Origin: a virus
Strand: one strand, 5' to 3'
IMG/VR virus record: IMGVR_UViG_3300011116_000719
Span: 1 to 27,285 of that record
Length of the DNA: 27,285 nucleotides
The notes under the pieces are model-generated. The model was not told where the DNA came from. It saw nothing but the letters and a program-made list of their open reading frames with translations, and did no database searches. Positions 6,836-26,523 of the stretch are shown piece after piece (position 1 is the stretch's first letter; each line of letters starts with the position of its first letter). The position numbers and the translations under genes are program-made.

Positions 6836-6842
6836 ATAAATA
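6835..6842 (+). promoter_or_regulatory. Late-type box AATAAATA, 5 nt before the ATG
   Basis: The box follows the stop of the preceding gene and sits exactly 5 nt before the ATG at 6848, the same spacing as several minus-strand late boxes. Confidence 0.45.
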
Positions 6843-6847
6843 ATATT

Positions 6848-7111
6848 ATGAGAACATATAGAAAAGTAAATCAATTTCCTGTCCGCACTCGTGGAAACAC
6901 TTGGATGAATAATGAAGGTGCTTTGGTTGTAAATCAAACTGCATCAGCAGTAGATTTTACATATACCGCATTAGCACCAACTGGGGCTACTGTAGACATA
7001 CCAATGAAAATTGCTGCAAATAGCAGCACTTTAATTCCTATCGTACTTTCTTCCTGGGATAGCGTGCCAAAAGGTGGCGCGGTAGGAATTACATTTTACA
7101 CCGTATATTGA
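6848..7111 (+). CDS. Unknown beta-rich 87-aa protein, possibly structural
   Basis: This small protein is almost free of charged residues after position 25 and alternates hydrophobic and small polar residues (A-V-D-F-T-Y-T-A-L; V-D-I-P-M-K-I-A-A-N-S), as in a beta-sandwich. It has no cysteines. It ends one base before the next gene. A decoration or fibre-associated role is plausible from composition and from the neighbouring 155-aa gene, but no homologous family is recognised. Confidence 0.6.
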   Translation: MRTYRKVNQFPVRTRGNTWMNNEGALVVNQTASAVDFTYTALAPTGATVDIPMKIAANSSTLIPIVLSSWDSVPKGGAVGITFYTVY

Positions 7112-7112
7112 T

Positions 7113-7319
7113 ATGGCCAAAGAAATCCGTTGTCTGATAACCAATCAGATACTACGGCCCAAGGAATGGTTCTGGTTGTCTTGGGAAATGGATGCTGCCA
7201 TCTCAGCACAAGGTATCGCAGAAATAGAAATTCGTCGTCATGATCCTGACGACGAATTTGCTAAATTATTATGGGAAGAATGGGAATGGTCCCGAGAGAT
7301 CGGGTATCCTGATCTTTAA
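7113..7319 (+). CDS. Unknown acidic 68-aa protein
   Basis: The gene follows its neighbour by one base. The product begins with a short strand containing C-L-I-T-N, then a Trp-rich segment (K-E-W-F-W-L-S-W-E), and ends with an acidic Trp-rich helix (L-L-W-E-E-W-E-W-S-R-E). It converges with the minus-strand gene ending at 7316, overlapping by 4 nt. There is no domain I can name. Confidence 0.6.
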   Translation: MAKEIRCLITNQILRPKEWFWLSWEMDAAISAQGIAEIEIRRHDPDDEFAKLLWEEWEWSREIGYPDL

Positions 7320-8155
7320 TTTTTACGGAGTTGTTTTTGCATTACTTCTAATGCATTAGAAGCCCAGCTATGAATTTCTTCACCATGTTTTTCTGGACCA
7401 TCACGAACAATTTCTAAAATTTTTCCAAGCTTTTCGCTAGGAGTTTCTGTCCCTCTGAATATTCCTCTTGGGGCATCTAAACTATTTGGACTTCTAGCAG
7501 GAATTTCAGAATCACCTCCAGTAACTATACGACCGCGAACAGGTTTTTTGCCCTCATTCATCATTGTTGAAATCTTAGAATTTATTGCTTCTTTGACAGT
7601 TTTCCAAGGAGCAGAAGAATATCCTGCAAGATGACGAGCTTCTTCATCTTCTTCATAATTGGCTTCTTCAGCTTGTTTAGCTAATTCTTCCGTTTCAGCA
7701 CGGGCCTGAGCAGCAATAGAATATGATGGCATTCTTGTTTCAGGATCAGCCACTTCTCCATCTTGAACATCGTCTTCGACAGCCTGTGCATCACCAGCAG
7801 GTTTTGCATCAATAGGACCATTTGATCTGGCCATCTGTGCCATTCTTTCAGCTCGTTTCATTCTTTGAAGATCTACATAAGCACCAACATCACCATCGGC
7901 AAGTTTAATTGTTCCCGGAGAATGAGGCCCAAGACGACTAATTGCATCCATAACATCGGCAGGATGAGCGCTTGGAGATTCTGGATTGATAACAGGGTTC
8001 TGGGGCATTTGGGCCATTAATTGAGCCTGTCTAGCAGGATCTGTAATTTTTTTGGCTGTAGTTTCATTAAGCATACGAGCGCCATTTTGTTGGGCTTGTA
8101 GACCAGCCTCATTAAGGGAGTGAATCCAGTTATATTTGCCTTTATTGTTCTTCAT
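7316..8155 (-). CDS. Unknown 279-aa protein, candidate virion-internal
   Basis: The N-terminus (Y-N-W-I-H-S-L-N-E-A-G at about 8-18) carries an L-N-E-A prohead-protease-type site in the position expected of a capsid-targeting sequence. Most of the rest is low complexity and likely helical or disordered: Gln/Met/Ala-rich (residues 20-60), acidic (about 125-180, A-E-E-A-N-Y-E-E-D-E-E), and Arg/Gly-rich (about 200-225). A second motif, S-T-M-M-N-E-G, occurs near 197-203. A CTAAATA box lies 5 nt before the ATG. Confidence 0.7.
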   Translation of the reverse strand: MKNNKGKYNWIHSLNEAGLQAQQNGARMLNETTAKKITDPARQAQLMAQMPQNPVINPESPSAHPADVMDAISRLGPHSPGTIKLADGDVGAYVDLQRMKRAERMAQMARSNGPIDAKPAGDAQAVEDDVQDGEVADPETRMPSYSIAAQARAETEELAKQAEEANYEEDEEARHLAGYSSAPWKTVKEAINSKISTMMNEGKKPVRGRIVTGGDSEIPARSPNSLDAPRGIFRGTETPSEKLGKILEIVRDGPEKHGEEIHSWASNALEVMQKQLRKN

Positions 8156-9001: not shown

Positions 9002-9166
9002 TTTTGTGTGTAGTTAAGCGGCTGAGGATAAACGGCTAGGCTTATATGGACCTAGGTTTCTAGAACCGAAGGTTGAGAATGGGTGCAAGTCCCTCGCTAC
9101 GCTTTGGTATTGTTGATATTGGATTGAAATGCGTACAAGACGGGGGTTCGAATCCCCCCGACTCCA

Positions 9167-9261
9167 TTAGCCTAAGTCAGAGAATCTGCAACCCTCTGAA
9201 TATGGCGAGCCAAGTCCTCGTAGCAGCGGGGCATTTCCCGAAGTCCTAGGCTTCGGGTCAC
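9167..9261 (+). other. Intervening segment removed from the permuted tmRNA precursor
   Basis: This segment joins the acceptor piece to the coding piece. It has hairpins TCAGAG/CTCTGA and CCCGAAG/CTTCGGG, plus AGCCTA able to pair with TAGGCT near its two ends. In permuted ssrA genes such a spacer is cut out to leave two RNAs held together by base pairing. Confidence 0.7.
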
Positions 9262-9356
9262 GGGGTCGAAAGGAATAGATTGGCGCAAAGTAATGAAGAA
9301 GGAGATACCCGACACGGGTAACAAGTGTCGTAAATAAACAGTTGCAAAAAATAATT

Positions 9357-9383
9357 GCTAACCAATTAGCAATGGCTGCTTGA
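9357..9383 (+). other. tmRNA tag reading frame ANQLAMAA, stop TGA
   Basis: The frame GCT AAC CAA TTA GCA ATG GCT GCT TGA begins after GCAAAAAATAATT, closely matching the upstream context of the E. coli tag (GCAAAAAATAGTC). The encoded peptide, after the tRNA-derived alanine, is A-N-Q-L-A-M-A-A. It is shorter than most bacterial tags but keeps the N-terminal A-N and C-terminal A-A. The stop lies in hairpin CTGC/GCAG, as in helix P5 of tmRNA. Confidence 0.85.
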
Positions 9384-9422
9384 AGCAGTGGGGTTTGGTC
9401 TCCCGCATCTGAATCGACCCTG

Positions 9423-9446
9423 AACCCCCCTCAAAAGGGGTTTTGT
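9423..9446 (+). terminator. Terminator at the end of the tmRNA gene
   Basis: AACCCC pairs with GGGGTT around CCTCAAAA and is followed by TTTTG. It marks the 3' end of the permuted tmRNA precursor and isolates it from the next promoter at 9450. Confidence 0.8.
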
Positions 9447-9449
9447 TAT

Positions 9450-9477
9450 TTGACAGGCCATAAATAAAGAGTATACT
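9450..9477 (+). promoter_or_regulatory. Sigma70 promoter TTGACA-16-TATACT with an embedded late box
   Basis: The -35 is a perfect TTGACA and the -10 is TATACT, separated by 16 bp. The spacer contains CATAAATA (9459-9466), a late-type box, so this may work both early and late. It drives the four-gene unit 9484-10601. Confidence 0.75.
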
Positions 9478-10627: not shown

Positions 10628-12239
10628 ATTTCTTTTTCTTTGTTGATCCGCCATAAAATGGTGATCTTGAAAAAGTAAGTTCTTCCAGTTCATGTGTGTG
10701 GTGTAAACCCATTTGATCCAACAATTGTTGAGAAAGTTTTCTTTGAACTGAATCTGCACCTCTGTGGTGAACTGTTGCAATTTTACCTTCATGGCCTATA
10801 ATGCTTAAATCATCTGATTTTGTTCGAACTGCCTGATATGCTGGTTGCCTAAATCTTTCTTTTACACGTTTTATTGTTCGTGGAAATAATCTTTCCAATG
10901 TTGGCCACAGACCATATCTTTTTTTTGATCCAGAAACAGTTCCACGTTTAATCAATTCTTCACCAACATCAATTTCCCCTTCATGGGTAGATATATTTGA
11001 AGAAGTAGGTTGCACACCAATTTTAGTAAAAGATCTGGGAATGGAAACTCTTGTTCCACGCGGAATTAAATATTGTTTCTGCATTTTTTTATTATATCCA
11101 GATTCAATACCTATATGATGTACTGTACCTTTTTTCTCAGGATGTTCCATGCCCACATGAATATCGGAATGTATTCCGATACCACCTTCTCCAAAAATAC
11201 CAAACTCTCCAATTCCAAGTTCTTCTTTTGATTTAATTCCAGTTTTTAATTTATATCCAGCAGCATGCAATTTTTTTGTTATTGCATCTAACAAAGCCTG
11301 TTCTCTTCTAACATTGTTACCTACTACTTTAGTATTTCCAAACAAACCAAAAGCATTTTCTGTTTCTTTTCCACCAGTTTCTTTTTTAGTTCTGGCAGTC
11401 AAAGAAACCATTGTCTTTTTTCCGGTGGATTCCAATTCTTGTGGGTCTGTCAATGTCGCTACCGATGATTCCCCAGAGCTATCATCAGCGTCATTATAAG
11501 ATTTTGTCAATCCTCCTGTTTCTTCAAATAAAAAATCCATAACATCCAGTCCATACTCTTCCATGAAATTTTTTGCAGGATATGTAATCCAATAAAGATC
11601 ATGTTCATCGGTATCTGGCTTTTTGGTTCGAATAGCCATCTTACCACTTGGATTTCTTTGTTGAAATCGTTTCAGATATTTCTTTGTAGGACTATCTGGA
11701 ATATGCTTCCATGCTTTTGCATTTTTAAAATTTTGGAATTCATTGTGATCTACGTCAAACATCTCAACTGGAGATCTTCGGAACAGTGGTAGATCCATTG
11801 GCTTGTCGTAACCCATTACAGTTCCGGTGTTTGGAACAACTTGGGCCGTACCAAGACTTCCGGGAGAGCCACCTGTTGCCATTCCAGCTCCCATATCTTC
11901 ATTCAATAATAGACCACCTTGAAGATATCCTTCTACAAAAAGTAAAAAATGTTCTTTGGGAATTCCAAGAAACTCTGCTTCTTCATTAAAAATCTGGAAC
12001 GCAGACATGTAACTATTGAGTCTAGCTTTTGTATAGTTTGTTGGCAACTCTTCAAATATTTTCTTTAGCTTTATTACAAAATACTCAAAGGGGTCTATGC
12101 TGCTTTCGGGCTTTAATAGATTTCCATTGGCATCAATTACACCAGATGCGTATGCTCCAAATGATGTATATGGAGCAGAAACGGATTGTGCAAAATTTGA
12201 TATAGAAAAAGAAGGAATATAGGCTGATGAAGATGGCAT
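10626..12239 (-). CDS. Unknown 537-aa protein, candidate virion protein
   Basis: The N-terminal 40 residues are Ser/Ala/Tyr-rich. A helical region at about 50-115 follows (P-F-E-Y-F-V-I-K-L-K-K-I-F), containing L-L-L-N-E-D-M-G, a possible prohead-protease-type site. The middle is polar, then Gly/His-rich (G-I-G-E-F-G-I-F-G-E-G-G-I-G-I-H-S-D near 345-362), and the last 110 residues are basic (R-T-I-K-R-V-K-E-R-F-R), ending in K-K-K-K. A CTAAATA box lies 7 nt before the ATG. No known fold is recognised. The gene shares promoter type and strand with the candidate internal proteins. Confidence 0.7.
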   Translation of the reverse strand: MPSSSAYIPSFSISNFAQSVSAPYTSFGAYASGVIDANGNLLKPESSIDPFEYFVIKLKKIFEELPTNYTKARLNSYMSAFQIFNEEAEFLGIPKEHFLLFVEGYLQGGLLLNEDMGAGMATGGSPGSLGTAQVVPNTGTVMGYDKPMDLPLFRRSPVEMFDVDHNEFQNFKNAKAWKHIPDSPTKKYLKRFQQRNPSGKMAIRTKKPDTDEHDLYWITYPAKNFMEEYGLDVMDFLFEETGGLTKSYNDADDSSGESSVATLTDPQELESTGKKTMVSLTARTKKETGGKETENAFGLFGNTKVVGNNVRREQALLDAITKKLHAAGYKLKTGIKSKEELGIGEFGIFGEGGIGIHSDIHVGMEHPEKKGTVHHIGIESGYNKKMQKQYLIPRGTRVSIPRSFTKIGVQPTSSNISTHEGEIDVGEELIKRGTVSGSKKRYGLWPTLERLFPRTIKRVKERFRQPAYQAVRTKSDDLSIIGHEGKIATVHHRGADSVQRKLSQQLLDQMGLHHTHELEELTFSRSPFYGGSTKKKK

Positions 12240-12246
12240 ATACTAA

Positions 12247-12253
12247 TATTTAG
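12247..12253 (-). promoter_or_regulatory. Late promoter box CTAAATA, 7 nt before the ATG
   Basis: The box overlaps the stop of the upstream gene and stands 7 nt before the ATG at 12239, leaving at most about two leader bases. Confidence 0.6.
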
Positions 12254-12648
12254 TTTTCAGCCTGCTGGAGCTTCCTATCGACTCTGGGATCACAATTAAC
12301 CTTATGATACTGTACTTCTGGAATAGATTTAATGTTAAATTCCAGAAATACAAGGAAGGATTTCAAGTATGAATGCAATCTTGGCTCCAATCTAAAAAAG
12401 AGAATGCGGGTGCAATTCTCTTCGCCAAAAACATTTCGTAAAATTATAATATGATTTATAATCAATCTTTCACGAATTGACTTCAATGTCTTGTGTTTAT
12501 GAACTTTTTGCAATAATCTCTTAACGTATTTGATACGCTTGAGATCATCCATAAACTCATTTTTTCCAGAACATTCTGAGTTAAAATAATATCTCTGACA
12601 GAATTCGAGAAAATTATCTTCTGTCAGAGGTACTATTTTTTCTTTCAT
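12250..12648 (-). CDS. Conserved T4-like phage hypothetical protein, 132 aa
   Basis: The ATG at 12648 is preferred: the longer frame starts inside the upstream gene. The sequence has a pattern I have seen in T4-like phages of aquatic bacteria: F-L-E-F-C-Q-R-Y-Y, then D-L-K-R-I-K-Y-V-K-R-L-L, I-R-E-R-L-I-I-N-H-I-I-I-L-R-N-V-F-G, and finally Y-L-K-S-F-L-V-F-L. It is a helical protein without an evident active site. It follows the 181-aa gene by 7 nt. The molecular role is unknown. Confidence 0.75.
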   Translation of the reverse strand: MKEKIVPLTEDNFLEFCQRYYFNSECSGKNEFMDDLKRIKYVKRLLQKVHKHKTLKSIRERLIINHIIILRNVFGEENCTRILFFRLEPRLHSYLKSFLVFLEFNIKSIPEVQYHKVNCDPRVDRKLQQAEN

Positions 12649-12655
12649 TATGGGA

Positions 12656-13201
12656 TTAGTGCATGCAACCACAGTCGGAACCACTATTTAAAGAAGAATC
12701 ACCAGTTGGAACAATGACTATGGATAGCTTCTTTAAATGGTTTGGTTGCTTTACAACCGTGATGGAAAGAGCTAATGAATGACCGATCTTTTCCTTGATG
12801 CCATCGCCTTGCTTGAAGCCGTTCTTGTTGACATCATCATATGGATTTTGACCATAGACGCCTAGTTGAGGACTGCCATATTGAACCAACTCAAACATAT
12901 TTGGTCCTTCTTGCAATGAGCCTTTTGCAGCAAAGTCAAAACCAAAATGATTTAACTTTTGCTTAATGATAGCTAGTAGGCCATCTGGGTCAATGTATTC
13001 TCTGGAGGATAGACCATAGAGCATTGCGTTGATTGCATCTAAGGAATGTGGAAGCTTGATGTTGTGGGTTCCCTTATCAGTCAGGGCAGATTGACCCAAC
13101 TTTCCTTGGGGATCACCAATATAAAGGCCACCACCAAAGGTATGCTCTGGGGCATTTTCATTTAATACGCTGATTTTTGATAATAGTTGTTTAAATTTCA
13201 T
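12656..13201 (-). CDS. Candidate internal virion protein, 181 aa
   Basis: The first 17 residues (M-K-F-K-Q-L-L-S-K-I-S-V-L-N-E-N-A) resemble a T4 capsid-targeting sequence, with cleavage expected after L-N-E. The rest has a Gly-rich start (F-G-G-G-L-Y-I-G-D-P-Q-G-K), a helical middle and a C-terminal part ending in C-G-C-M-H. AAAGGA lies between a CTAAATA box and the ATG. The gene forms a unit with the 132-aa gene downstream. No enzymatic motif is seen. Confidence 0.7.
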   Translation of the reverse strand: MKFKQLLSKISVLNENAPEHTFGGGLYIGDPQGKLGQSALTDKGTHNIKLPHSLDAINAMLYGLSSREYIDPDGLLAIIKQKLNHFGFDFAAKGSLQEGPNMFELVQYGSPQLGVYGQNPYDDVNKNGFKQGDGIKEKIGHSLALSITVVKQPNHLKKLSIVIVPTGDSSLNSGSDCGCMH

Positions 13202-14066
13202 GGCTATCCTTTATATTTAGATGTAAATTTGTTTTGTTGTTTACCAGCCCATACAAATTTGGATCATAAGTTTTTTCTAGCAATGAATTTAAAGTTTTAT
13301 TAGAAATTTCTTCTGTGATCGTTTTCCACTTTACATCTTTATATACTTCAGTTTCTTCCTTGAGCATTGTTGATACTGGCTTGCTGCTCCATGTCTTGCA
13401 TGCCCAGTATCTGGCTTTCCATCTTGGTCCAGGATTATCACAATTGTGTCTTGCTCTAAAATTTTTGCGTCTAGCAGGGTTGTCGCGCTTTATTTCCATG
13501 TTAGGATCACCAAAGTTTACCTTGACAACATTGCCTTTGTCGTTCTTTACATAAACTTTGTACTTTTTGACATCCCCTCGCATGATTTTGTTTAATTTAA
13601 CTTTTTTGTCTCCATCTTCGTAAATTTCAATCTTTTCATCATATTGATTGTAAGATGTGCTTTCTACGTTATCGACAAATCCCATTACAGTATCTGGAGT
13701 AAATACTTCTTTTAGTTCACAATTATTCTGATCGACAAAAGTTACAGTATAAATGCCTTCATTTTGTTCAACCAAGTCTACTTCAAACATTTCGCCCGAT
13801 TCATTTATGATGATGTCACAAGGCAATAGATTCTTGGCTTCAATTGAATCAAAGGTCATCTTGAATACTTTAGATGCACCTTCTACCAGAAACAAATTGT
13901 ATGCTTCTTTTAATTCCAATAAACCTGCTTTTACAAAAACAGGTCTGTCGCCTTTGCTTTCATTAAGTTCTTTTCTAATAATATCTCTCTTTTTTGAAGA
14001 AGAGTGACTATACTTTGAAAAAACTTTTTCAACTAAATCTTTGGCGATTTTTGATTTCATTTCCAA
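13191..14066 (-). CDS. Phage protein with an FRARHxCD-KARYWxCK domain, 291 aa
   Basis: Residues about 155-225 contain a highly conserved phage domain: R-G-D-V-K-K-Y-K-V-Y-V-K, then V-N-F-G-D-P-N-M-E-I-K-R, F-R-A-R-H-N-C-D, and W-K-A-R-Y-W-A-C-K-T-W. It occurs in many large aquatic phages, often in virion-associated proteins; its activity is unknown to me. The N-terminus has R-K-E-L-N-E-S near 31-37, another possible prohead-protease-type site. The start overlaps the upstream gene by 10 nt and the end overlaps the 181-aa gene by 11 nt, so all are coupled. Confidence 0.75.
   Translation of the reverse strand: MEMKSKIAKDLVEKVFSKYSHSSSKKRDIIRKELNESKGDRPVFVKAGLLELKEAYNLFLVEGASKVFKMTFDSIEAKNLLPCDIIINESGEMFEVDLVEQNEGIYTVTFVDQNNCELKEVFTPDTVMGFVDNVESTSYNQYDEKIEIYEDGDKKVKLNKIMRGDVKKYKVYVKNDKGNVVKVNFGDPNMEIKRDNPARRKNFRARHNCDNPGPRWKARYWACKTWSSKPVSTMLKEETEVYKDVKWKTITEEISNKTLNSLLEKTYDPNLYGLVNNKTNLHLNIKDSHEI
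13214..13220 (-). promoter_or_regulatory. Late promoter box CTAAATA
   Basis: The box lies inside the end of the upstream gene, 12 nt before the ATG at 13201, with AAAGGA in between. Confidence 0.55.
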
Positions 14067-16450
14067 TCCTTGTTTTGCTTCTCGCCTTTTTTGTGGCCAT
14101 TGTCAGATCTATTGTCAGATCTATCTCGGAGACGCAAATTATTTATACCGTTGGAACCACCGTTGCGCAGAGCCTTCTTGTGATCTATATCTTTCTTCGA
14201 TCCCTTCTTAACGACTCCTTTGCGAATCATCAAGGCTCTTGCAGCTGTTCTGGCTGCACGTTCCTTCTTCTGCTTTTTCTTGCCGTGGTAATTTCTATAT
14301 TCTTTTTTATAGTCTCTCTTGTATTCTTCATCCAGATTGGAATCAATTATCTCTTCAAACAAAGGAACTAGATAATCTGAATTCTGTTCTGTAAGAGAAT
14401 AGATCTTATTCAACATTGGAATCAGGCAACCAACTCTTAGATCTTCCTCTTCCAAAAGAAGTGGGCCATATTTCTCAATGAGATTTCTTTCACCATCGTC
14501 CAGTATCTTTACATGATTTAATCTGGACAATAGGAAGTTATTTGTCAAAGCTTCTACAAGCATTTCATTGATCACTGAATAGTTTTCACCAATCAATTGA
14601 TTTGAAAGTTTGTCACTTCTTACAACTGGAATCTTTGTTGTCTTCTTACCAATGGTGACATAGTTGTATTCAACCGCGTTGATGTCTTCTGGCTTGAAAC
14701 CCGGCAACAGACTTGCATTGATGTCAAAAGAAAGATTTTTAATAGAATTCTGTACAATCAATTCCAGTGGATTAATTGTTTTTCTATCTATAAAAAGCTT
14801 CTTGATATCTGGCTTCTTGGCTGTTTTTGGTTCGGTTTCTTCTACAACAGTACGCCATCTTTGTAAATCATTGATTGCAGCTTTTTTATAAGAAGATAGG
14901 TTTGAATGATCTATAAGATCGTCTGATTTCTTTACAGTTACAATTGCATTCTTTGAAACTTCGTCAATGTAATCATCGGTCAGCTTAAAGATTCCATTTG
15001 CAGTGATGACATGGTTTGGAGCCATCTTTGGATCTGTCATACCATCACCACGAAGTGAGGTCTTCATGATATTTGAAGCCAAATTTTTCAAGAATGTATT
15101 CTTCTTACCACCCTTGAATAACTCTTGTCCTGCTTTGTTTATGGAATTTTGATATGCAGATACAGAGATTGCTGGATTTACATTTCCATTAGCATCGATT
15201 GCAAAACCAAGGCTTTTTCCAGAAGGTGATTTAATTTCATAAGATTGAAATTGTTTTAACAATTCAGGATTAGATAAAATTGCTGCAACCGATTCATCTG
15301 GAAGCAACTGTCCAGAATAATTTTCTCCAGAAGCTTCAACGTCACTCAATAGTTTCTTTATTGTTGGATCTGAAGCTGCAATTTTGGGATCCATCAATGT
15401 TCTTGAGATGGCACCACCAATGATCCCACGAATTATTTTACCACTTTGGTTCAAGGAATTTGTATTGATTGTGAATTCACCACCAGCAGAGATCTTAAAC
15501 TTATATTCACCACATTGAAGTTCTGGTGTTCCTTCTGTATACATTCCACTTGTTCCGGCTTCGATGCTGGATACAAGATTTTGAATGCATTCGTCACCAA
15601 TCTGTGAAAGAATCTTGCTGGCTTGCAAGAAAGCGGTCTTGGTAAAGTCCATAGACCCTGTACTTGTAGCCATGAGAGTTTGTAACTCTTGTTCGCTTGC
15701 TCCAGCCTTTAGCTTTGCAACAAACAACAAAGCGTTCAATACTTGTTGGTTATAAGGTGTGCTGGACAAAGAGTTAATACCAAACTCAATGCTCAAATTT
15801 TCAAAATTTAGGATATCAAAATCCTTTGAGGCCATGGGGGCTCGGATGCTTTGAAAGTATTCTTGTTGAAGTTCTTTGGGCATTCCGGCCAATTGTTCGC
15901 CATTCATACCTTGCATGGCTTGAAGAATTTCTTGTTTAGAAAGTCTCTTGGCTTTTTGTGGTTGTGCCCCTGGTTCAGCTTCGGCTTCAGCTGATTTTGG
16001 TTTCTTTTCTTTAGTTTCTTCTTCACCGCCCTTTTTCTTTTCGGGCTCTTTCTTTTCTTTACTCTTTACATCACCAAACAATAACTTAGATGCTCTTGTC
16101 TGTTCAAAGTTTGCATCACCAGTATATTGCTTTGCTTCATCTTCGGTCAACACATCGCTCTTATTGAGCTTGGTGTGAAGATTCTTATTGAAAGAATCTT
16201 TGAAGATCAACTGGACTCTTCCAGATTGAGTCTTTACGGCAATCATCTCTCTTACAAGTTCGCCCTTGGATTTTCTATCTCTTGGGATCTGTTTGGCGCG
16301 CTCTGCGCGCTTACGTGCAGCATCCTTGGCCTTATTATCGGATGCACCTGATTTGGCTGAATCCTTACGCATGGCTTCCCCAGTAGTTCTGAAGGAATCT
16401 GCGGAAGTATTGGCGGCTTCTGTAAGTTTGATAATATCCTTGAAGTTCAT
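14057..16450 (-). CDS. Large candidate ejected virion protein with a C-terminal HNH domain, 797 aa
   Basis: The start (M-N-F-K-D-I-I-K-L-T-E-A-A) is a clear T4-type capsid-targeting sequence with L-T-E-A cleavage site. Residues 15-75 are basic, about 120-170 is a Lys/Glu-rich linker, and 190-660 looks like several helical domains. At the C-terminus (about 705-797) lies a module known from phage HNH proteins: Y-R-N-Y-H-G-K, an Arg/Ala-rich helix, D-I-D-H-K-K-A-L-R-N-G-G-S-N (from 754) and N-L-R-L. The D-H pair and the later Asn fit an HNH active site. A GATAAATA box is 7 nt upstream of the ATG. A nuclease delivered with the genome is plausible; a structural role is also possible. Confidence 0.72.
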   Translation of the reverse strand: MNFKDIIKLTEAANTSADSFRTTGEAMRKDSAKSGASDNKAKDAARKRAERAKQIPRDRKSKGELVREMIAVKTQSGRVQLIFKDSFNKNLHTKLNKSDVLTEDEAKQYTGDANFEQTRASKLLFGDVKSKEKKEPEKKKGGEEETKEKKPKSAEAEAEPGAQPQKAKRLSKQEILQAMQGMNGEQLAGMPKELQQEYFQSIRAPMASKDFDILNFENLSIEFGINSLSSTPYNQQVLNALLFVAKLKAGASEQELQTLMATSTGSMDFTKTAFLQASKILSQIGDECIQNLVSSIEAGTSGMYTEGTPELQCGEYKFKISAGGEFTINTNSLNQSGKIIRGIIGGAISRTLMDPKIAASDPTIKKLLSDVEASGENYSGQLLPDESVAAILSNPELLKQFQSYEIKSPSGKSLGFAIDANGNVNPAISVSAYQNSINKAGQELFKGGKKNTFLKNLASNIMKTSLRGDGMTDPKMAPNHVITANGIFKLTDDYIDEVSKNAIVTVKKSDDLIDHSNLSSYKKAAINDLQRWRTVVEETEPKTAKKPDIKKLFIDRKTINPLELIVQNSIKNLSFDINASLLPGFKPEDINAVEYNYVTIGKKTTKIPVVRSDKLSNQLIGENYSVINEMLVEALTNNFLLSRLNHVKILDDGERNLIEKYGPLLLEEEDLRVGCLIPMLNKIYSLTEQNSDYLVPLFEEIIDSNLDEEYKRDYKKEYRNYHGKKKQKKERAARTAARALMIRKGVVKKGSKKDIDHKKALRNGGSNGINNLRLRDRSDNRSDNGHKKGEKQNKDWK

Positions 16451-17738: not shown

Positions 17739-19841
17739 TTATTCAATTGAAATTGTTTGAGAAGAGGAGAACAAACTTCTCAATATTGCATTGATGTCGG
17801 TTCCAGCCATTTTTCTACGGCGATCATCATCAAGATCAGTACCACGGCTTTCTCCACCACCCAATTTCAAAGTTGGTAATGTTGGAGGAACTGTGGGTGG
17901 TGTTGGAGGTGGTTCTTTTGGAGGAGTAGTTGTTATTGGAACTACAGGAGGAATAACTGGGGCACCACCAACAGTATTTGCTTGACTTATTCTATTAGTA
18001 TTGGTTTGGTCAACAGTGTTAAAGTTTACCTTACCTTTAGCGGGTGCAGTAGATGTTGATGTATTTTTGTTTTCTAACTTCTTCCACCAATCATTTTGGA
18101 ATTTGTTAGAAGCTTTTGTGCTGTAATTAGTTGTTGTCGTAGTTTTATCAGAAGATCCAGTTGTAACGGGAACTTTAGATGAAGATCCTGTATCGCTTCC
18201 CTTTGCTCCTGTTTCAGCTGCTGGTGCAGTAGATGTTCTGGAAGTTGATGCTCCAGATTCAGGAGGTGCGGTTGGATTTCTCATTTCAACATTTCCCATA
18301 CTCTCTCTGGGAGCTGTTTCTGTGGAAACCATGGCTTCGGTGGGTTTAACGACATCTACGGCTGGGCTTGGCACGCCACCAGCACGAGCAGCCAATAAAG
18401 CTCCGGTTAATGCAGCCGCACCTTGTTTGGCGCGACTTACTGGTTCGGATGGGGATACATTTGAAGGTTTAACTGTGAGAGAAGATGGATCAGTCGTTGT
18501 CGATGGTCTTTCTCCTACAATATTGCCTTCAGCATCGGTTATTGTTTCATAACCTAATCCAGTATCCCATGTTCGTTCACCCGTTGGCAAATCCCAAGAT
18601 CTATTTGTAGGTGTAGTTCCGGCTCTTCCTCTAATAATTCTATAATTCCAAGGATTCATACCTTGCATGGCATCAACTGCTTCCCCGGCACCAGTTCTTA
18701 TATTTGAAGGAATATCACTCCATGGAGTATCTGCAATACCGCGAGCCACAGAACGAGCTGCGCCCGCCACTTTACCGCCAGCTGTTCCTAGAGATTCTGC
18801 AGTACCTTTAGCAACTGCTCCCACATCTCCAGCAATTGCTTTTCCTTTTGCATATGCTGCAGGTGCTGCTTTAATTGCGGCAGGAATTCCTACTCCTGTA
18901 ATATCTCTACCCAAAGCAAAAGGAGCGACACCACCAGCCAATTCACCTGCAAATCTTCCAAGTTTTCCTTCTTGGCCGGCTTGATAAGCACCATAACCTA
19001 CTGCACCAAGTCCTGCAAGATTTACAGCAGACTGTCCGACAGCTGATCCCATTTCGGCAGCATCTCTTGCTTTTCCAATAGCACCTGGAAAATATTTGGC
19101 AACAGATGGCAAGAATTTAGGAACAAACTTTGCAATTTTTGGTGCAACAACTTTACCAAGTGCTCCTGCACCCATTCCTGCTGCTTTGAATGCTGCTCCA
19201 AATGCTGCACCCTTTGCAATACCTTCTGGGGTTGTTAGACTTTCTTGAGCACCACGTAAGAAATCATAAAGTGCGGCAGACTTGTCATCTATCCCACCCC
19301 ATTTTTCCATAGACATTGGTTCTCTGGAGTATTCTTTTCCTGTAGTCTCATCCTTTACGGTTGATTGCAATTCTAATGGGTTGGTGATATCTCCGGCCAA
19401 ACTTTCGTATTCATCACGGGTCAATACTTGTGCAAGTTCTGGTTTGCTGGCAAGAGCTCTTTTTAATATTTCGATATCATTAACTTGAATAGGATCTGGA
19501 ATTCCACCAGCAATAGCTTTTTGACGATCATCAAATGCTTTTTTACGAGCAGTTACCATTTCCTTTGCCAACAATGATCTCAACTTACCATATGCTTCTG
19601 GATCTTCTTTGGCAAATGAAACTTCTGCGTGAGACATTCCTTCAACACCTGGAGTATACTTTACACTGGCATCGGCATAATCTTGCAATAATTCATCAGC
19701 CGTTTTGCCTTTTGCTTTGGCTAACTTATTCCAAGAAAATGCACCATCGCCACCATCATCAGTTCTTTCCTGAAGAAAGTTTTGTTGATATCTTTGTTCT
19801 AAAAGAACTTGTGTTAATGGGTGAAGTTTGCGTAACATCAT
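17739..19841 (-). CDS. Large candidate ejection protein, Gly/Ala-rich, 700 aa
   Basis: The start ATG overlaps the upstream stop (ATGA), which shows coupling to the 623-aa gene. Residues 1-30 (T-Q-V-L-L-E-Q-R and N-F-L-Q-E-R) could include capsid-targeting sites. Residues about 195-370 form a remarkable Ala/Gly-rich hydrophobic region (G-A-A-F-G-A-A-F-K-A-A-G-M-G-A-G; L-G-A-V-G-Y-G-A-Y), like membrane-inserting or pore-forming segments. The last 230 residues are Pro/Thr/Ser-rich and probably disordered. The composition resembles phage internal proteins that form a conduit during DNA ejection, but sequence alone does not prove this. Confidence 0.65.
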   Translation of the reverse strand: MMLRKLHPLTQVLLEQRYQQNFLQERTDDGGDGAFSWNKLAKAKGKTADELLQDYADASVKYTPGVEGMSHAEVSFAKEDPEAYGKLRSLLAKEMVTARKKAFDDRQKAIAGGIPDPIQVNDIEILKRALASKPELAQVLTRDEYESLAGDITNPLELQSTVKDETTGKEYSREPMSMEKWGGIDDKSAALYDFLRGAQESLTTPEGIAKGAAFGAAFKAAGMGAGALGKVVAPKIAKFVPKFLPSVAKYFPGAIGKARDAAEMGSAVGQSAVNLAGLGAVGYGAYQAGQEGKLGRFAGELAGGVAPFALGRDITGVGIPAAIKAAPAAYAKGKAIAGDVGAVAKGTAESLGTAGGKVAGAARSVARGIADTPWSDIPSNIRTGAGEAVDAMQGMNPWNYRIIRGRAGTTPTNRSWDLPTGERTWDTGLGYETITDAEGNIVGERPSTTTDPSSLTVKPSNVSPSEPVSRAKQGAAALTGALLAARAGGVPSPAVDVVKPTEAMVSTETAPRESMGNVEMRNPTAPPESGASTSRTSTAPAAETGAKGSDTGSSSKVPVTTGSSDKTTTTTNYSTKASNKFQNDWWKKLENKNTSTSTAPAKGKVNFNTVDQTNTNRISQANTVGGAPVIPPVVPITTTPPKEPPPTPPTVPPTLPTLKLGGGESRGTDLDDDRRRKMAGTDINAILRSLFSSSQTISIE

Positions 19842-21709
19842 TGTCCTCTATTAAGTTTCTTTAATTGGTCGTCAATATTTTCTTTGCTTCCGGGTTCAAT
19901 TGGTGTGCGACCAACTTTAGGAGCAGTAAAGCTATTTATTAGAGATACATATTCGTTTGGTGCTTTGGAAGCTCTTTGAGAATTTTCTCTTTCAGCATCT
20001 AATCTTTTTTGTGTTTCAACTTCTTTATTATAACGTTCTTTATTTCTTATGTCAGATCTGGCAGCAGCATTTGCTGCATTATCATCGCCCGTAGGGGTTG
20101 GCAAAAATGGTTTGTTATCTTCATCTTCGGGACGAGAAACAAAATCTTGAACAGACCGTTTAATGCCATAAGTGTCAGGTGCCGAAAGAAATCTAGGTGC
20201 ATCAAACTTAAAGGTATCCGCCCAAGTTTTTTCCCTAGCAATCCGTGTTGCTTCTTTTTTGTCTGCAGTTTCTGTTGCAACACGTTTGGCTTCATCAGCT
20301 GCAACTTGAGCTTGAACTTGTGGCATTAGTTTTGCTGTCTCAGCATCACGGACCTGTTTTCTGTAGTCAGAATTATTTTGGAATTTATCCAATTCAAATT
20401 GAGATTTATCCATTTGACGAGTAAGATCACCGCCTTTTTGTGCTAAATCTTTATTTTGTGCATCGTATCTGGCATTAAATGCATCAGTAGTAAGATCAAG
20501 CTGTTTAGCTGTTTCAGATCTTCCTCTGCTACCTGCACCAGCCAAGTTGCTAATCAATGAGCTGTCACGCGCATCAGTAGCATTAAATCTTCTTCCAGTC
20601 TTGGCTTCAAATTCACCATAAGTCATATTGGTGCCTTGAACTACTTTATCTTTCATGCTTTGATAACGATCTTCCTTGACTTTATCTGCAAAAGCCCTAT
20701 CTTCTTTTCTTTTGGCTTCTGCTTCACGGGACATAGCATTTTGAGTTGTTTGAGCAAGATCTTCTGTGCTTCGACCTAAAGTTGATTTCATAGCAGCATC
20801 GGGAGTTGCAAATGAATCTACGACATTTCCACCATCTGGAGTTGGTCCTTGAAGGGCTTGCTGTTTATTTGATAAAACACCATTATTATACGTACTATTT
20901 CCTAATTTTTCTCTTACTCTACCCTCTAGGCTGGGGTCTCCTTTTGAATATTGACCACCACCCATATAAATCTTCGCCATTTGAAGTTCTGCGGCTTCTT
21001 TAGCAGTAAGAGATGAAGGATCTTTACCAGATACTGTTTCTATGGTTTTGGTAATACTTGTAGCTCTTTTTTCTCTATCTTTCTCATCACGCCACGATTG
21101 AAGCTTTGCTCTATTTGCTGCAGTATCGGCTGCAATACCGGGTTTTTGAGAATCCATTTCAAGTTGTGCATCTTCACCCGCATCCTTCATTGCTTGGCCA
21201 TATTGATAAGTTTCATCTTCAGCTCTTCTGCGGCGACTATCTGTTGCAACTTGTCTTCTATTTTCTTCAGCTTCTCTTTGTTTTGCCAATCTCATTTCAA
21301 CATTTTGTTGATATTCTTCTGGATTGCGGTCTCTCCACGAAGAACCTGAGCCGGGTCTGCGAGAAGAATCAAAAGATCTACCGGGGCCACCGCTGAGACT
21401 ACCGCCACCAAATGCAGGAGCTGGGGCTTCTGTCAAATTAAACATATTTGACGTAATATTATTAGAATTATTTTTTATATGGTTTTCATTCAAAGACAGC
21501 AAAGAATTGACGCTGGAAATAATATCCTCGGTCAATGGTGCTGGAGGGATAATAGAAGGTCTATAAAGAGCATCATTTTTAATGATGGTCTTTGAGATGC
21601 ATTCTTTTAAGGATTCGGGTTTACTAACTTTTGAGGAGTTAGATTGATTATTATTTCCCAAGAAATCCTTGACTTCCCAATAAAATTGTCTATCTTGTTT
21701 ATTATCCAT
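19838..21709 (-). CDS. Candidate internal virion protein, 623 aa, charged helical
   Basis: After about 85 polar residues with L-S-L-N-E-N near 71-76, there is M-F-N-L-T-E-A-P-A-P, an L-T-E-A prohead-protease-type site, followed by a Gly/Ser/Arg-rich segment. From about 125 onward the sequence is long, charged and helical (R-L-A-K-Q-R-E-A-E-E-N-R-R-Q; A-K-R-K-E-D-R-A-F-A-D-K-V-K-E-D), as in coiled coils. No enzyme motif is visible. A CTAAATA box lies 10 nt before the ATG. The 700-aa gene follows, and the two may act as a pair in the capsid. Confidence 0.65.
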   Translation of the reverse strand: MDNKQDRQFYWEVKDFLGNNNQSNSSKVSKPESLKECISKTIIKNDALYRPSIIPPAPLTEDIISSVNSLLSLNENHIKNNSNNITSNMFNLTEAPAPAFGGGSLSGGPGRSFDSSRRPGSGSSWRDRNPEEYQQNVEMRLAKQREAEENRRQVATDSRRRRAEDETYQYGQAMKDAGEDAQLEMDSQKPGIAADTAANRAKLQSWRDEKDREKRATSITKTIETVSGKDPSSLTAKEAAELQMAKIYMGGGQYSKGDPSLEGRVREKLGNSTYNNGVLSNKQQALQGPTPDGGNVVDSFATPDAAMKSTLGRSTEDLAQTTQNAMSREAEAKRKEDRAFADKVKEDRYQSMKDKVVQGTNMTYGEFEAKTGRRFNATDARDSSLISNLAGAGSRGRSETAKQLDLTTDAFNARYDAQNKDLAQKGGDLTRQMDKSQFELDKFQNNSDYRKQVRDAETAKLMPQVQAQVAADEAKRVATETADKKEATRIAREKTWADTFKFDAPRFLSAPDTYGIKRSVQDFVSRPEDEDNKPFLPTPTGDDNAANAAARSDIRNKERYNKEVETQKRLDAERENSQRASKAPNEYVSLINSFTAPKVGRTPIEPGSKENIDDQLKKLNRGQ

Positions 21710-22244: not shown

Positions 22245-22542
22245 TTATGCTTTTGTATGTGAAAGTTGTGATCATAAATTTGATAAAATTTTATCTGTAG
22301 ATGACCGTGATCTGCCAACCAAAGAACCTTGCCCAAGTTGCAAAAGTAAAAAAGTATTCAAAAATTGGCAGGCTAGCGCCCCAACCTTGACCATGGATGC
22401 AACTTTGACTCCTTCCAAGGTTGTAGGAAGTCAGTTCAAGGAAGTAATTGATAAAATTAAGAGTAGTGGTCAGGTTCCAAAGAGATTCCATGAAAAATTG
22501 GATAATAGCGCCAATTTGAATGCTGGTCGAATTGTCCGTTAA
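22237..22542 (+). CDS. Zinc-ribbon (FmdB-like) protein, 101 aa
   Basis: Two knuckles, C8-x2-C11 and C32-x2-C35, with the start M-P-N-Y-A-F-V-C-E, fit the FmdB-type zinc-ribbon family, whose members are small putative regulators. The rest (residues 45-101) is polar with a helix (S-Q-F-K-E-V-I-D-K-I-K-S). It is translated after the HNH gene through an 8-nt overlap. It is convergent with the resolvase gene and overlaps its end by 4 nt. Confidence 0.8.
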   Translation: MPNYAFVCESCDHKFDKILSVDDRDLPTKEPCPSCKSKKVFKNWQASAPTLTMDATLTPSKVVGSQFKEVIDKIKSSGQVPKRFHEKLDNSANLNAGRIVR

Positions 22543-23078
22543 TTTTTGGCCTGAATCATTGCCTTTAGAATATAATAACTGTCAATAACATCCGTAACAG
22601 GATTACTCAAAGTTTTTTGATCAAAGACCGACAAAAGATTGGTCTTTGTTTCTTTGGTGAAGGCTTCGTACATTGCCTGTTTATCTGCGTTACCTTTGCC
22701 TGTGGCGCATTTCTTGACTCGGGATGGCTCAATGATGGTCACGGGAATGGCGAGCTTATAGAGCTTATGCTTCAAGATTCCCATATTCTCGGCCAAATTG
22801 AATACTCGGCCTTTGGAACCAAATGAATACCCTTCTACGGCTATATCCGCAGCCCCAATGCAAAGATTAGAAGCCCACTGGGATATGGTATCAAATCTAT
22901 CAACATCCAGAACATATTCTTGAAAAGATTCCCCTGTAATATTTGGAGCAATCTTATCAGCATATTTTTTGGTATTGGTCAGATAATAGAAAAAACAATT
23001 ATCAAATTTAAATTCTTTGCGCTCATCATAAAGACAAAGGCAGGGGCAAGTTATAGAATAATCAATGCCGATTAACAT
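22539..23078 (-). CDS. RuvC-like Holliday-junction resolvase, 179 aa
   Basis: The sequence starts M-L-I-G-I-D-Y-S, with Asp6 in the first strand of an RNase H fold. Glu82 lies in V-E-G-Y-S-F-G, and Asp163 and Asp166 in V-T-D-V-I-D-S-Y-Y. This D...E...D pattern and the strand I-P-V-T-I-I-E-P-S-R-V-K-K fit RuvC-like resolvases, which cut branched DNA. In a T4-like phage it may resolve replication forks before packaging. ATG 23078 is preferred because a start at 23087 would leave only 3 nt from the late box. Confidence 0.8.
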   Translation of the reverse strand: MLIGIDYSITCPCLCLYDERKEFKFDNCFFYYLTNTKKYADKIAPNITGESFQEYVLDVDRFDTISQWASNLCIGAADIAVEGYSFGSKGRVFNLAENMGILKHKLYKLAIPVTIIEPSRVKKCATGKGNADKQAMYEAFTKETKTNLLSVFDQKTLSNPVTDVIDSYYILKAMIQAKN

Positions 23079-23090
23079 ATGGAACATATA

Positions 23091-23203: not shown

Positions 23204-23235
23204 AAAAATTCCACCCTTATGGGGTGGAATTTTTT
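23204..23235. terminator. Strong terminator with A and T tracts
   Basis: AAAAATTCCACCC and GGGTGGAATTTTT form a 13-bp stem around a short loop. It overlaps the stop codon of the metalloprotease gene and separates it from the downstream small RNA and resolvase gene. Confidence 0.9.
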
Positions 23236-24508
23236 ATTTTTGTCTGTCTTTCTCTCGTTGTCTTTGCACTTGCAAGAATCTTGGATCAACTTGGTATTCT
23301 TCGCCGCCGCCTCTTAAGAAAGCATCACCCATCATTTGTTCGCTATCTGAGAACATTGGATTGTACAATGAAGATTGTGCCTTTGTCATTGTTTGGGCTT
23401 TGCTGTGCACATCTCCAAGTGCTCCTGCCATGTCTGCTGCCATATTTGCTGTAGACAATGGATCTGAAAGGAATGGTGATGTCTGGAAGCCACCATATCG
23501 TGATTTGATACCTTCTACTTCTGCTTGTGTGTTTGCAACTCTTTGCTGACGTTCTCTCATTGGAGTGGTAACTGTATCAGAATATGCTAGGTGCATTTCT
23601 TGTTCAGCTGCTTTTTGATTTGCCAAAATTGCTCTACCAATATCAGATTGTATGGCTTTCTGGGTTTTTTCTAATGTTTTAATTATTTTATTTGCATCAG
23701 ATGGTTTTTGTACCATAGCTGGCGCTAATTTTTTATAATAATCTATTGAATCTTTTTCAGGTTCAAATACTTTGGGAAATATAACATCTCTTCCAAACAA
23801 GCGTGCGTCTTGGGGTACTCTATCTAATTCAGGCGGTTGAAGCGTTCCTCTAGATTTTTCAAGATTTAATTCAAAATCAGCATATTCTGGTCTATTTCTA
23901 ACAACTTGACGAGCAAGTTGATTTTGTTTTCTTTGAGCTTCTAAGCCAAACTGCACACCTCTTGCATTTACTTCTAGTGGATCAGTTTCATAAGAAAGTT
24001 GTTTAAAAAAATCTTTTGTCCAATGATCATTATCACTTTTTTGTGGAGGACTTATTTCTGGTTTCACTTTAGTATTATCAAATTTTTGTGATTTGGTTCT
24101 ACTTAATGCAAACTTTGGATTTGATTCAAATTGTCTTTCAGATTGATTGCCGTGCGTCAACTCATGTTCTAAAGTTGATCTTACTTGTGAATCGGGATCA
24201 GACATCAATTCTGGTTTGTCTGTAAATAATTTTATTAAATTAATAGGATCTGCACCTTCTTCATCTGCTGGCAACAATCTCTGTGTGCCTAATTTTACGT
24301 TATCTGGAGGTAAAGCTGCCAAATAAGTATCCAGATTGGCTCCGGGCAACCTTGATGGTGCTTCATCTTTTGTAAAAGCCATAGCTCTAATACCATCTGG
24401 AAAATCTTCTAAACTTTTTAAAGATTTTGCTACTTTTTTTGCTTGTTTGGAAACTGTATCCAGTTGGCTTTCTACAGATTCAATAATAAATTGTTTAAAT
24501 GATAGCAT
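23234..24508 (-). CDS. Putative capsid-targeted zinc metalloprotease, 424 aa
   Basis: Residues 1-11 (M-L-S-F-K-Q-F-I-I-E-S) match the T4 capsid-targeting pattern, with cleavage expected after I-I-E. Residues 111-119 (S-T-L-E-H-E-L-T-H) hold the HExxH zinc-protease motif: His115, Glu116, His119. A third ligand may be Glu179 in D-P-L-E-V-N-A-R, a segment typical of the downstream ligand helix in related phage and bacterial peptidases. The second half (about 195-424) is a charged, Gln-rich helical region. A TATAAATA box is 5 nt before the ATG. The protein may be packaged and cut host proteins after injection, or act in the head; this is inference. Confidence 0.7.
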   Translation of the reverse strand: MLSFKQFIIESVESQLDTVSKQAKKVAKSLKSLEDFPDGIRAMAFTKDEAPSRLPGANLDTYLAALPPDNVKLGTQRLLPADEEGADPINLIKLFTDKPELMSDPDSQVRSTLEHELTHGNQSERQFESNPKFALSRTKSQKFDNTKVKPEISPPQKSDNDHWTKDFFKQLSYETDPLEVNARGVQFGLEAQRKQNQLARQVVRNRPEYADFELNLEKSRGTLQPPELDRVPQDARLFGRDVIFPKVFEPEKDSIDYYKKLAPAMVQKPSDANKIIKTLEKTQKAIQSDIGRAILANQKAAEQEMHLAYSDTVTTPMRERQQRVANTQAEVEGIKSRYGGFQTSPFLSDPLSTANMAADMAGALGDVHSKAQTMTKAQSSLYNPMFSDSEQMMGDAFLRGGGEEYQVDPRFLQVQRQREKDRQK

Positions 24509-24513
24509 ACCAA

Positions 24514-24521
24514 TATTTATA
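24514..24521 (-). promoter_or_regulatory. Late promoter box TATAAATA, 5 nt before the ATG
   Basis: A perfect late box lies exactly 5 nt (TTGGT) before the ATG at 24508, touching the 3' side of the hairpin at 24521-24547. Another late-type box (CATAAATA, 24547-24554) lies on the far side of that hairpin. Confidence 0.75.
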
Positions 24522-24547
24522 ACCCCCAGGATTGCTCCTAGGGGGTT
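24521..24547. terminator. Hairpin between tRNA-Asn and the metalloprotease gene
   Basis: AACCCCC pairs with GGGGGTT, with an inner AGGA/TCCT stem. It follows tRNA-Asn on the minus strand, but no long T run follows there, so it may act mainly as a processing or 3'-protecting hairpin. Confidence 0.6.
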
Positions 24548-24554
24548 ATTTATG

Positions 24555-24626
24555 CTCCTCCGACTGGATTTGAACCAGTGACCCGAGAGTTAACAGCTCT
24601 CTGCTCTACCGCTGAGCTACAGAGGA
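24555..24626 (-). tRNA. tRNA-Asn (GTT)
   Basis: Read on the minus strand, acceptor TCCTCTG pairs with CGGAGGA and the discriminator is G. The anticodon stem GAGAG/CTCTC encloses CTGTTAA, which reads GTT. D-arm sequence GTAGCTCAGCGGTAGAGC and T-loop GGTTCAAATCC are standard. CCA is not encoded. It follows the RNR gene by 7 nt and is likely cotranscribed with it. Confidence 0.95.
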
Positions 24627-24633
24627 AAGTGAA

Positions 24634-26523
24634 TCAGACTATCTGACAACCGCCTGCACTGCAAGCATATTCTTTTGCGGATTCAGTATTGTCTTCTGCC
24701 TCGTATTTAGACAGGTCCTTAAAGTTAACTTTAACCTTGGGATGTGCTGAATAGGTTGCAGAATCAATCTGCTCAAAGGGTGCCTGAGCATAGGTGTGAC
24801 TATCACCACCGGGAAGGAATGAGATGCCGGTTGCGACATCAAAGTTTTCCCAGAGCCAGTTACCAACTTCAAGGAACTCAGAGTCTTTGTAGTTGACAGT
24901 AATAGATGGCTTGTGGTGGCAATAGTGCTCTTGATAAGTTTTCCACAGATCAAGATGATCAAGTGCGCGAAGTTCCTCGGTGGTCATGGTTCCCTTTGGG
25001 GCCTTCATCGCAAACGTAAAGACGGCAGTAGAAGTTGGGTTGATCACATCATCTTCGCACGGGACGCCTTGATCTTTCATCAAATTGTAAAGAGGATCTT
25101 TCTTGTCCAGACGAATTCTGCGGTAATAGTAATCCGCATAGCGAGGATGCAGACCCGAGGCAGAGTCCACCAAACACGATGTAGTGCCTTCAGGCTTCAC
25201 GCAAGTAATCGACTTGCTAGGTTGGATGCCCAACTTCTCTGCCCACTTGAGATTTGTCGCGGTCGCATGATCACGAAGAGTCTCAAGAAGACGAACAAGC
25301 TTTGGCTTGCCTTCAAGCCCACTGGTAAGCTTGTTGTCAAAAATACCTGTCATGGATACGCCAAGCAGTCTTTCCTCTTCGCAGTTCTTCTTCCACTCGG
25401 GACGAAGATATGGGAAATGAGTAAAGGTAGATTGGACAGTACCGATGATTGTAGCAATCTCAATCTTCTTCTTCAGTGTTGCTGCAGTATCGTCTTGACG
25501 AACTACGACTGTAGAAAGATTGCAAAATTCAAATGGCTTGAGAATGATCTCTGAGCATGGATTGGTGCCATATTCGCACTCGGGATCACGACCAGACTTT
25601 GCAGCCTGCTCTTGAAGAGCCTTGCGGTTGATCATTCCACGCTCACCACTGTGACTGTTATAGAGTGATGTCCACTCCTCAAGGAATTGTCCCATTGGAG
25701 GGCGACCACGGTAGACAGCCGAGTTATTGGCGTATGAACGGAAGCCAGCCTGTTCCCACCATGCACCGCTCTTGCAGAGTGCCATCTCACGATCAGCAAG
25801 ATCGCTCAATGAGATCATGGCAGAACGGCGAACACCACCAACAATTACTGCATTGGCAATAGCACAGCAAACATCATGGCATTCAAGTGCAGTTAGTCTA
25901 CGACCTTGCGCATTGTAGAAAACCTTTACGACAAACTTGAATAGATTATCTAGTGGAGCAGGGCCACTAGCACGACCACCAAAAGTCTTAAGTCGTGCAC
26001 CAGATGGTCTAATCTTTGACAGATCCCATTTAGGATGTCTGCCTTCATAAAGATTTGCAAAAATTGTCTTAATCGCATTTCCCCAACCTTCCTTTGAGTC
26101 TTCGACTACAATTACATTATCAAAATTCTTTTCAATCTTGTTTGCAACTGTTGGAAGCTTGTCAGTGTATTGACGTTCAACAGAATAACCAACTCCAGTT
26201 CCATTCATGAGAACTACAAAGAGTTCTGCAAATGATTCAAGTGAATCAATTGGTAGATAAGAGCAGTTATACAGACAAGTGTTGTCATGGTCAAGTGCTG
26301 GTCCTGCAGTCATGAGGCTGCGCATGGAAGGAAGAACCTCAAGATTGAGAATTGCTTCCTTGACATCAGGACGCTCCAACAATTGGGGAACCTTTCCCGT
26401 AAAATACTTCCACCATCTGTCAACGCATTCATCCCAAGTCTCACGACGATTTTGGTCGTTTAGCCAACGAGAGTAGCGAGAGATGAAAATAAACGATTGA
26501 AATGGTGATAAAATTTCGGCCAT
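24634..26523 (-). CDS. nrdJ: Class II (B12-dependent) ribonucleotide reductase, 629 aa
   Basis: This enzyme makes deoxynucleotides from ribonucleotides, using adenosylcobalamin as radical source. Signatures: G-T-G-V-G-Y-S-V-E-R near the substrate site, N-P-C-S-E-I with the radical cysteine and its glutamate, F-C-N-L-S with the partner cysteine, P-E-G-T-T-S, and a C-terminal C-S-A-G-G-C pair (Cys621 and Cys626) spaced like that of monomeric Lactobacillus-type enzymes. It is shorter than the 739-aa Lactobacillus enzyme. AAGGATT precedes the ATG and a CTAAATA box is 24 nt upstream. It stands next to ThyX, forming a nucleotide-synthesis pair. It depends on host or environmental cobalamin. Confidence 0.93.
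   Translation of the reverse strand: MAEILSPFQSFIFISRYSRWLNDQNRRETWDECVDRWWKYFTGKVPQLLERPDVKEAILNLEVLPSMRSLMTAGPALDHDNTCLYNCSYLPIDSLESFAELFVVLMNGTGVGYSVERQYTDKLPTVANKIEKNFDNVIVVEDSKEGWGNAIKTIFANLYEGRHPKWDLSKIRPSGARLKTFGGRASGPAPLDNLFKFVVKVFYNAQGRRLTALECHDVCCAIANAVIVGGVRRSAMISLSDLADREMALCKSGAWWEQAGFRSYANNSAVYRGRPPMGQFLEEWTSLYNSHSGERGMINRKALQEQAAKSGRDPECEYGTNPCSEIILKPFEFCNLSTVVVRQDDTAATLKKKIEIATIIGTVQSTFTHFPYLRPEWKKNCEEERLLGVSMTGIFDNKLTSGLEGKPKLVRLLETLRDHATATNLKWAEKLGIQPSKSITCVKPEGTTSCLVDSASGLHPRYADYYYRRIRLDKKDPLYNLMKDQGVPCEDDVINPTSTAVFTFAMKAPKGTMTTEELRALDHLDLWKTYQEHYCHHKPSITVNYKDSEFLEVGNWLWENFDVATGISFLPGGDSHTYAQAPFEQIDSATYSAHPKVKVNFKDLSKYEAEDNTESAKEYACSAGGCQIV

Follow-up and report, generated by a model that had tools for sequence, protein, structure and literature searches.

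The gene designated P0001, which lies in a 27,285-nt stretch of viral DNA (IMG/VR record IMGVR_UViG_3300011116_000719; hereafter the window), appears to encode a head-packaged zincin effector that occupies an interchangeable single-gene cassette and acts on a host protein after injection, a reading that we favor with moderate confidence. The protein itself is a probable zinc protease; zinc binding and proteolysis are suggested by its HExxH motif, by the conservation of that motif, and by the hotspot pattern of the locus. The original prediction described one protein, encoded at 23234-24508, with HELTH at residues 115-119, Glu179 as a plausible third zinc ligand, and a T4-style capsid-targeting start. 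The ORF, strand, length (424 aa), and residue numbers proved exact, Glu179 is a good candidate that is kept in both groups of homologues, and the start agrees with that of T4 IPIII at positions 4, 7, 8, and 10. The coordinates of the gene, its motifs, and the surrounding slot are collected in Table 1.

Table 1. Features of the cassette slot and of its cargo gene P0001 in the window.
Feature	Position	Strand	Remarks
RuvC-like resolvase, conserved 3' flank	22539..23087	(-)	phrog_159, E 1.8e-28; 80 loci
Terminator-like hairpin and T run, 3' edge	23204..23229	(-)	directly past the stop codon; retained in the empty allele L020
Zincin cargo gene P0001	23234..24508	(-)	424 aa, ATG start; residues 11-424 predicted to form the mature product
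Conserved C-terminal tail, residues 346-424	23237..23473	(-)	72% identical to L001 vs 20-50% in the middle
Cassette	23241..24548	(-)	24549 abuts 23240 in L020 and L022, which lack it
Glu179 within Y-E-T-D-P-L-E-V-N-A-R, proposed as the third zinc ligand	23972..23974	(-)	invariant in alignments A1 and A2; other zincin families with the leader have a matching motif
HELTH, residues 115-119 (His115, Glu116, His119)	24152..24166	(-)	H, E, H invariant in A1 and A2
Capsid-targeting sequence MLSFKQFIIE	24479..24508	(-)	aligned with T4 IPI/IPII/IPIII starts; common to 25 families; gp21-type cut predicted after Glu10 (I-I-E/S)
T4-type late promoter -10 element TATAAATA	24514..24521	(-)	5 nt upstream of ATG
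Hairpin CCCCCTAGGAGCAATCCTGGGGG	24523..24545	(-)	common to most cassettes at the slot
tRNA-Asn (GTT), 5' edge of slot	24554..24626	(-)	also in most of the other loci scanned, whether occupied or empty
nrdJ, B12-dependent ribonucleotide reductase, conserved 5' flank	24634..26523	(-)	phrog_367, E 2e-171; cultured phage relatives

As in gluzincins, P0001 contains an HExxH motif with invariant His, Glu, and His residues, and Glu179, which sits within SYETDPLEVNARG, would on its conservation be the downstream Glu that serves as the third ligand. The closest homologues of P0001 are proteins of 425 aa with 42% identity, which occupy the same location in three IMG/VR contigs and in which the HExxH motif, the E-V-N-A-R block, and most leader positions are invariant. 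Identity between P0001 and these relatives amounts to 70% in the leader, about 50% in the two zinc-site segments, and 72% in the last 79 residues, vs 20-40% elsewhere. A second group of homologues, consisting of L073 (HEMAH) and L069 (HEFAH), is 22% identical to P0001 and matches it in two blocks, HExxH and Y-S-Y-x-D-x-E-V-N-A-R. The residues kept in both groups are H115, E116, H119, S172, Y173, E179, V180, N181, A182, and R183, along with F4, F7, and E10 of the leader, the conservation of the body being drawn from one family at 42% and one at 22% identity and hence from very few independent sequences. Comparison of A1 with A4, the alignment of the second group, by hhalign gave a probability of 96.7% (E 3e-10), with exactly the two motif blocks aligned and the leader lying outside; a rerun with the leader trimmed and fewer sequences returned 68.6% (E 5e-5). 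Apart from the L073/L069 group, no zincin group was linked significantly to P0001 by profile comparison, and for this reason common ancestry of all zincin groups is not claimed.

No named peptidase family could be assigned to P0001, which had nothing above the cut-off in Pfam, PHROGs, or NCBIfam, where at most weak non-peptidase matches appeared, and no match among PDB sequences. Relatives were absent from 50,697 cultured phage records searched with tblastn, none of 84 pattern matches in bacterial genome contigs was a relative, and a deeper viral scan with A1 added no homologues. An AlphaFold model of P0001 from a shallow alignment gave a pLDDT of 40.4 and a pTM of 0.18; the two models that were run have pLDDT values of 40 and 43, which are low because the alignments are shallow. 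The gene evolves faster than its neighbors, yet it is constrained: dN/dS is 0.43 for P0001 against L001, at a dS of about 1.3 that is near saturation. Comparison with L002 gave lower values for the neighbors, 0.15 (RuvC-like gene) and 0.04 (nrdJ).

The N-terminus of P0001, MLSFKQFIIE/S, aligns without gaps to MKTYQEFIAE/A of T4 IPIII (the slash marks the gp21-type cut, which is predicted in P0001) and also resembles MKTFKEF of IPI. Mutagenesis of the T4 leader has assigned residues 4 and 7 to capsid targeting and residues 8 and 10 to processing by gp21, which cleaves after L/I-X-E (PMC9026906). P0001 carries suitable residues at all four positions (F4, F7, I8, and E10). Thus, the aromatic pair at 4 and 7 typical of T4-type capsid-targeted internal proteins is present, IPI-III having been translated for comparison, and the gp21 motif at positions 8-10 reads I8-I9-E10 in P0001 and L8-V9-E10 in L001-L003. 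Several other window proteins have L/I-x-E followed by A or N near the N-terminus (4192-4575, 7316-8155, 12656-13201, 14057-16450, and 19838-21709 (-)); examples such as FKEFLNE/A and IKLTE/A look like further candidate gp21 substrates. Another leader that recurs at N-termini, M-[ND]-[YHQ]-[LI]-T-N-x-Y-K-x..., is found at window 4821-5231 (-), at 2535-3572 in L001, and at 10823-12316 and 132467-132973 in the related contig G001; one of its bearers is a zincin, the same body of which sits behind an MLRFKQFL leader in L051. This second leader is possibly another head-targeting signal.

At 27 kb, the window record is a fragment in which no head genes of the phage are seen; gp21 and gp23 were found in a related contig instead. 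This contig, G001 (135 kb), contains the locus L012, and the RuvC-like proteins of L012 and the window are 96% identical. G001 encodes the portal gp20, the protease gp21 (Peptidase_S77), the scaffold gp22, the capsid protein gp23, and the terminase. The gp23 of this contig is about 53% identical to those of the nearest cultured T4-like phages, including cyanophages. Among the 146 ORFs of G001, seven begin with the leader, vs 0.02 expected from shuffling, and three are zincin candidates (10823-12316, 42287-44185, and 128195-129082).

In related T4-like phages, the slot that nrdJ/tRNA-Asn and the RuvC-like gene enclose is a hotspot for cassettes. The neighboring RuvC-like gene was used to retrieve 80 loci, 68 of which also have nrdJ in order. 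In 22 of these 68 the gap is essentially empty, 23 contain a leader-bearing gene by the strict pattern (26 if L061, L069, and L084 are added by eye), and the remainder hold other cargo, e.g., a lipoprotein; the loci include many near-duplicates, and the counts do not represent independent events. Next to RuvC-like genes that are 96-99% identical, the cargo is wholly different: some loci have a type-2 zincin, others an ART-like protein or a lipoprotein, and some have none. The segment missing from L020 and L022 runs from just behind tRNA-Asn to the stop codon and comprises the gene together with its TATAAATA promoter and the hairpin. Different cassettes have in common the tRNA, the hairpin, the promoter, and the leader codons, while their bodies differ; because the shared stretch covers all of these elements, homologous recombination could swap the body and retain the leader. 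Tandem pairs of leader-bearing genes in one slot are seen in L017 (5105-7890) and L069 (922-3358), both genes of the latter pair being zincins from different groups.

The 5-nt gap between TATAAATA and the ATG is also seen at most leader-bearing genes; in G001, such elements lie at 8094, 15099, 44198, 133273, and 133772. In the geometry of T4 late promoters, an element 5 nt before the ATG places the transcription start at about the ATG itself. The late mRNAs of leader-bearing genes may thus be leaderless, since the element lies exactly 5 nt before the start codon. Elsewhere in the window, four tRNAs lie within the first 9 kb, and a permuted tmRNA is present at 9076-9474 (+) (Rfam RF04321, E 8e-13; ARAGORN tag ANQLAMAA). 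Permuted tmRNAs are typical of alphaproteobacteria and some cyanobacteria, which gives a hint to the host.

The slot is empty in the near-identical phages L018-L022, and such presence and absence is what an accessory effector would show, not an enzyme of maturation. It bears directly on the proposal that the zincin processes itself or other packaged proteins within the head, either during maturation or before ejection, as has been proposed for DdrB of P1. Autoprocessing was the first role put forward for the metallopeptidase domains of polyvalent proteins (PMC5512222), and a packaged enzyme would adjoin many head proteins. However, the absence of the gene from these near-identical phages makes it dispensable for maturation unless a copy lies elsewhere, maturation cleavage is already supplied by gp21, and P0001 has no second recognisable effector domain that could be released, whereas polyvalent proteins carry at least two. 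We consider processing in the head unlikely overall, and head maturation is unlikely as the main role because near-identical phages are devoid of the gene.

The promoter-leader DNA pattern was found in 34 stretches, and the leader-bearing proteins were clustered at 60% identity into 25 families. HExxH occurs in 10 of the 25, vs 0.09 expected from composition shuffles, a test that is not post hoc because this motif had been named beforehand in the original prediction. All 10 HExxH families contain a downstream Glu in an E-[LMVI]-[NP]-[AS] context, a pattern drawn up after the sequences were seen, and Y-x5-E-[hydrophobic]-x-A is present in nine of them. The joint motif, the second part of which was derived from these same proteins, was detected in 11 of 2040 distinct ORF ends, every one of which (11/11) is leader-bearing. 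The tenth HExxH family is represented by L051 (HEAGH) and its G001 relative at 10823-12316 (HEWTH, leader MDQLTNLYK...LLNE), both of which keep YLSNRE[LI]P[SA]. A second enzyme class is seen behind the leader at 6671-7216 (-) in L121, from G001, where a SAM methyltransferase is found (Methyltransf_23, E 2.7e-8). The cargo of L023, L096, and L102 starts with PFYHKT...GLSVFIDP..A..Y, which resembles the start of an ADP-ribosyltransferase and would parallel T4 Alt; this PARP/ART identity was set aside, as the resemblance is confined to the motif and searches of Pfam and PDB gave no support.

The recurrence of the complete zincin-type motif also bears on the suggestion that the injected zincin fold is a mere scaffold, namely a non-proteolytic inhibitor that binds a host nuclease or defence protein in the manner of T4 Ip1-3 on GmrSD. 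The characterised T4 Ip1-3 are indeed inhibitors (PMC12373910) and not enzymes, and enzymatic action does not follow from packaging. Nevertheless, both His residues, the Glu at the catalytic position, and Glu179 are invariant in P0001 and its homologues, although the surrounding middle is only 20-40% identical, and the complete motif reappears in several unrelated-looking bodies. Binding without proteolysis is about as improbable as processing in the head.

Two C-terminal modules recur across otherwise different bodies, one of which is also present in cyanophage proteins near baseplate genes. One of these cyanophage proteins is annotated as an M15 peptidase, and this occurrence of the hydrophobic modules of other cassettes beside baseplate genes would suit a virion-associated enzyme working on the cell envelope at entry rather than on a cytoplasmic target, which is highly unlikely for P0001, as the protein has no match to the hydrophobic C-terminal module and its leader is of the head-core rather than the tail type.

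We return to the injected protease as the preferred reading. Conserved sequence signals with known roles in T4, together with the gp20-gp23 module of a relative, suggest that TATAAATA would drive late transcription, that residues 1-10 would direct P0001 into the prohead core via the scaffold, and that a gp21-type protease would cleave after Glu10, which would free residues 11-424 within the head. By analogy with the T4 internal proteins IPI-III and Alt (PMC3012670, PMC12373910, PMC9026906), P0001 would then enter the cell together with the DNA. There, as the motif, the conservation of the site, and the accessory, variable pattern of the hotspot suggest, HExxH and Glu179 may form a zinc site that cuts one specific host protein. 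This would most likely belong to an anti-phage defence that acts immediately, or be another takeover target. More tentatively, these phages might hold a swappable arsenal of zinc proteases packaged in virions behind capsid-targeting leaders, with at least three in a single genome and one of them in the tRNA-flanked slot, whose alleles would cleave different host defence proteins in the earliest stage of infection. If true, proteases brought in by phage heads would eliminate host proteins immediately, a protease counterpart to the arms race of the T4 internal proteins. The leader and slot would also provide a search handle, with each gene behind them a possible injected effector, and the tag of ten residues is directly testable in a laboratory T4 system.

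Among known systems, T4 Alt was the comparison first offered, and it stands for the delivery logic: Alt is a head-packaged enzyme with an N-terminal propeptide cut by gp21, which is injected and modifies host proteins. However, Alt is an ADP-ribosyltransferase with a 7-residue propeptide, is not a protease, and is not known in a cassette array. The closer parallel is with IPI-III, accessory and hotspot-encoded proteins that share only the leader. The T4 Ip1-3 proteins, which a hotspot encodes, have only this leader in common; they are injected and act as blockers of GmrSD nucleases (PMC12373910). Analogous to P0001, IPI-III carry aromatic residues at leader positions 4 and 7, with I at 8 and E at 10 also present in IPII and IPIII; like the cassettes of the window type, they combine one leader with different bodies, a hotspot, an accessory nature, and packaging in the head, which is predicted here. 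Contrary to P0001, with its 414-aa probable metalloprotease body in a single-gene cassette behind tRNA-Asn, they are precursors of 95-193 aa that inhibit GmrSD.

The SprT-like and ArdC-like zincins of jumbo phages (PMC7824862) are likewise variable phage zincins that have been suggested to cut host proteins; however, no capsid-targeting leader has been described for them, and similarity to SprT was seen here only below threshold, for two other cassette families and not for P0001. The zincins of polyvalent proteins (Iyer et al. 2017, PMC5512222) resemble those predicted here in that an HExxH helix is followed by a Glu on the next helix and in being phage-packaged and conflict-related, features that are putative for the leader-bearing proteins. 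They are large, multidomain, and often linked to ArdC, whereas the leader-bearing zincins are compact, carry a T4-type targeting sequence, and have no sequence match in Pfam or PHROGs. The characterised T4 internal proteins inhibit restriction nucleases; here, at a single swappable locus, the same kind of tag fronts many bodies that resemble enzymes and are often zincins.
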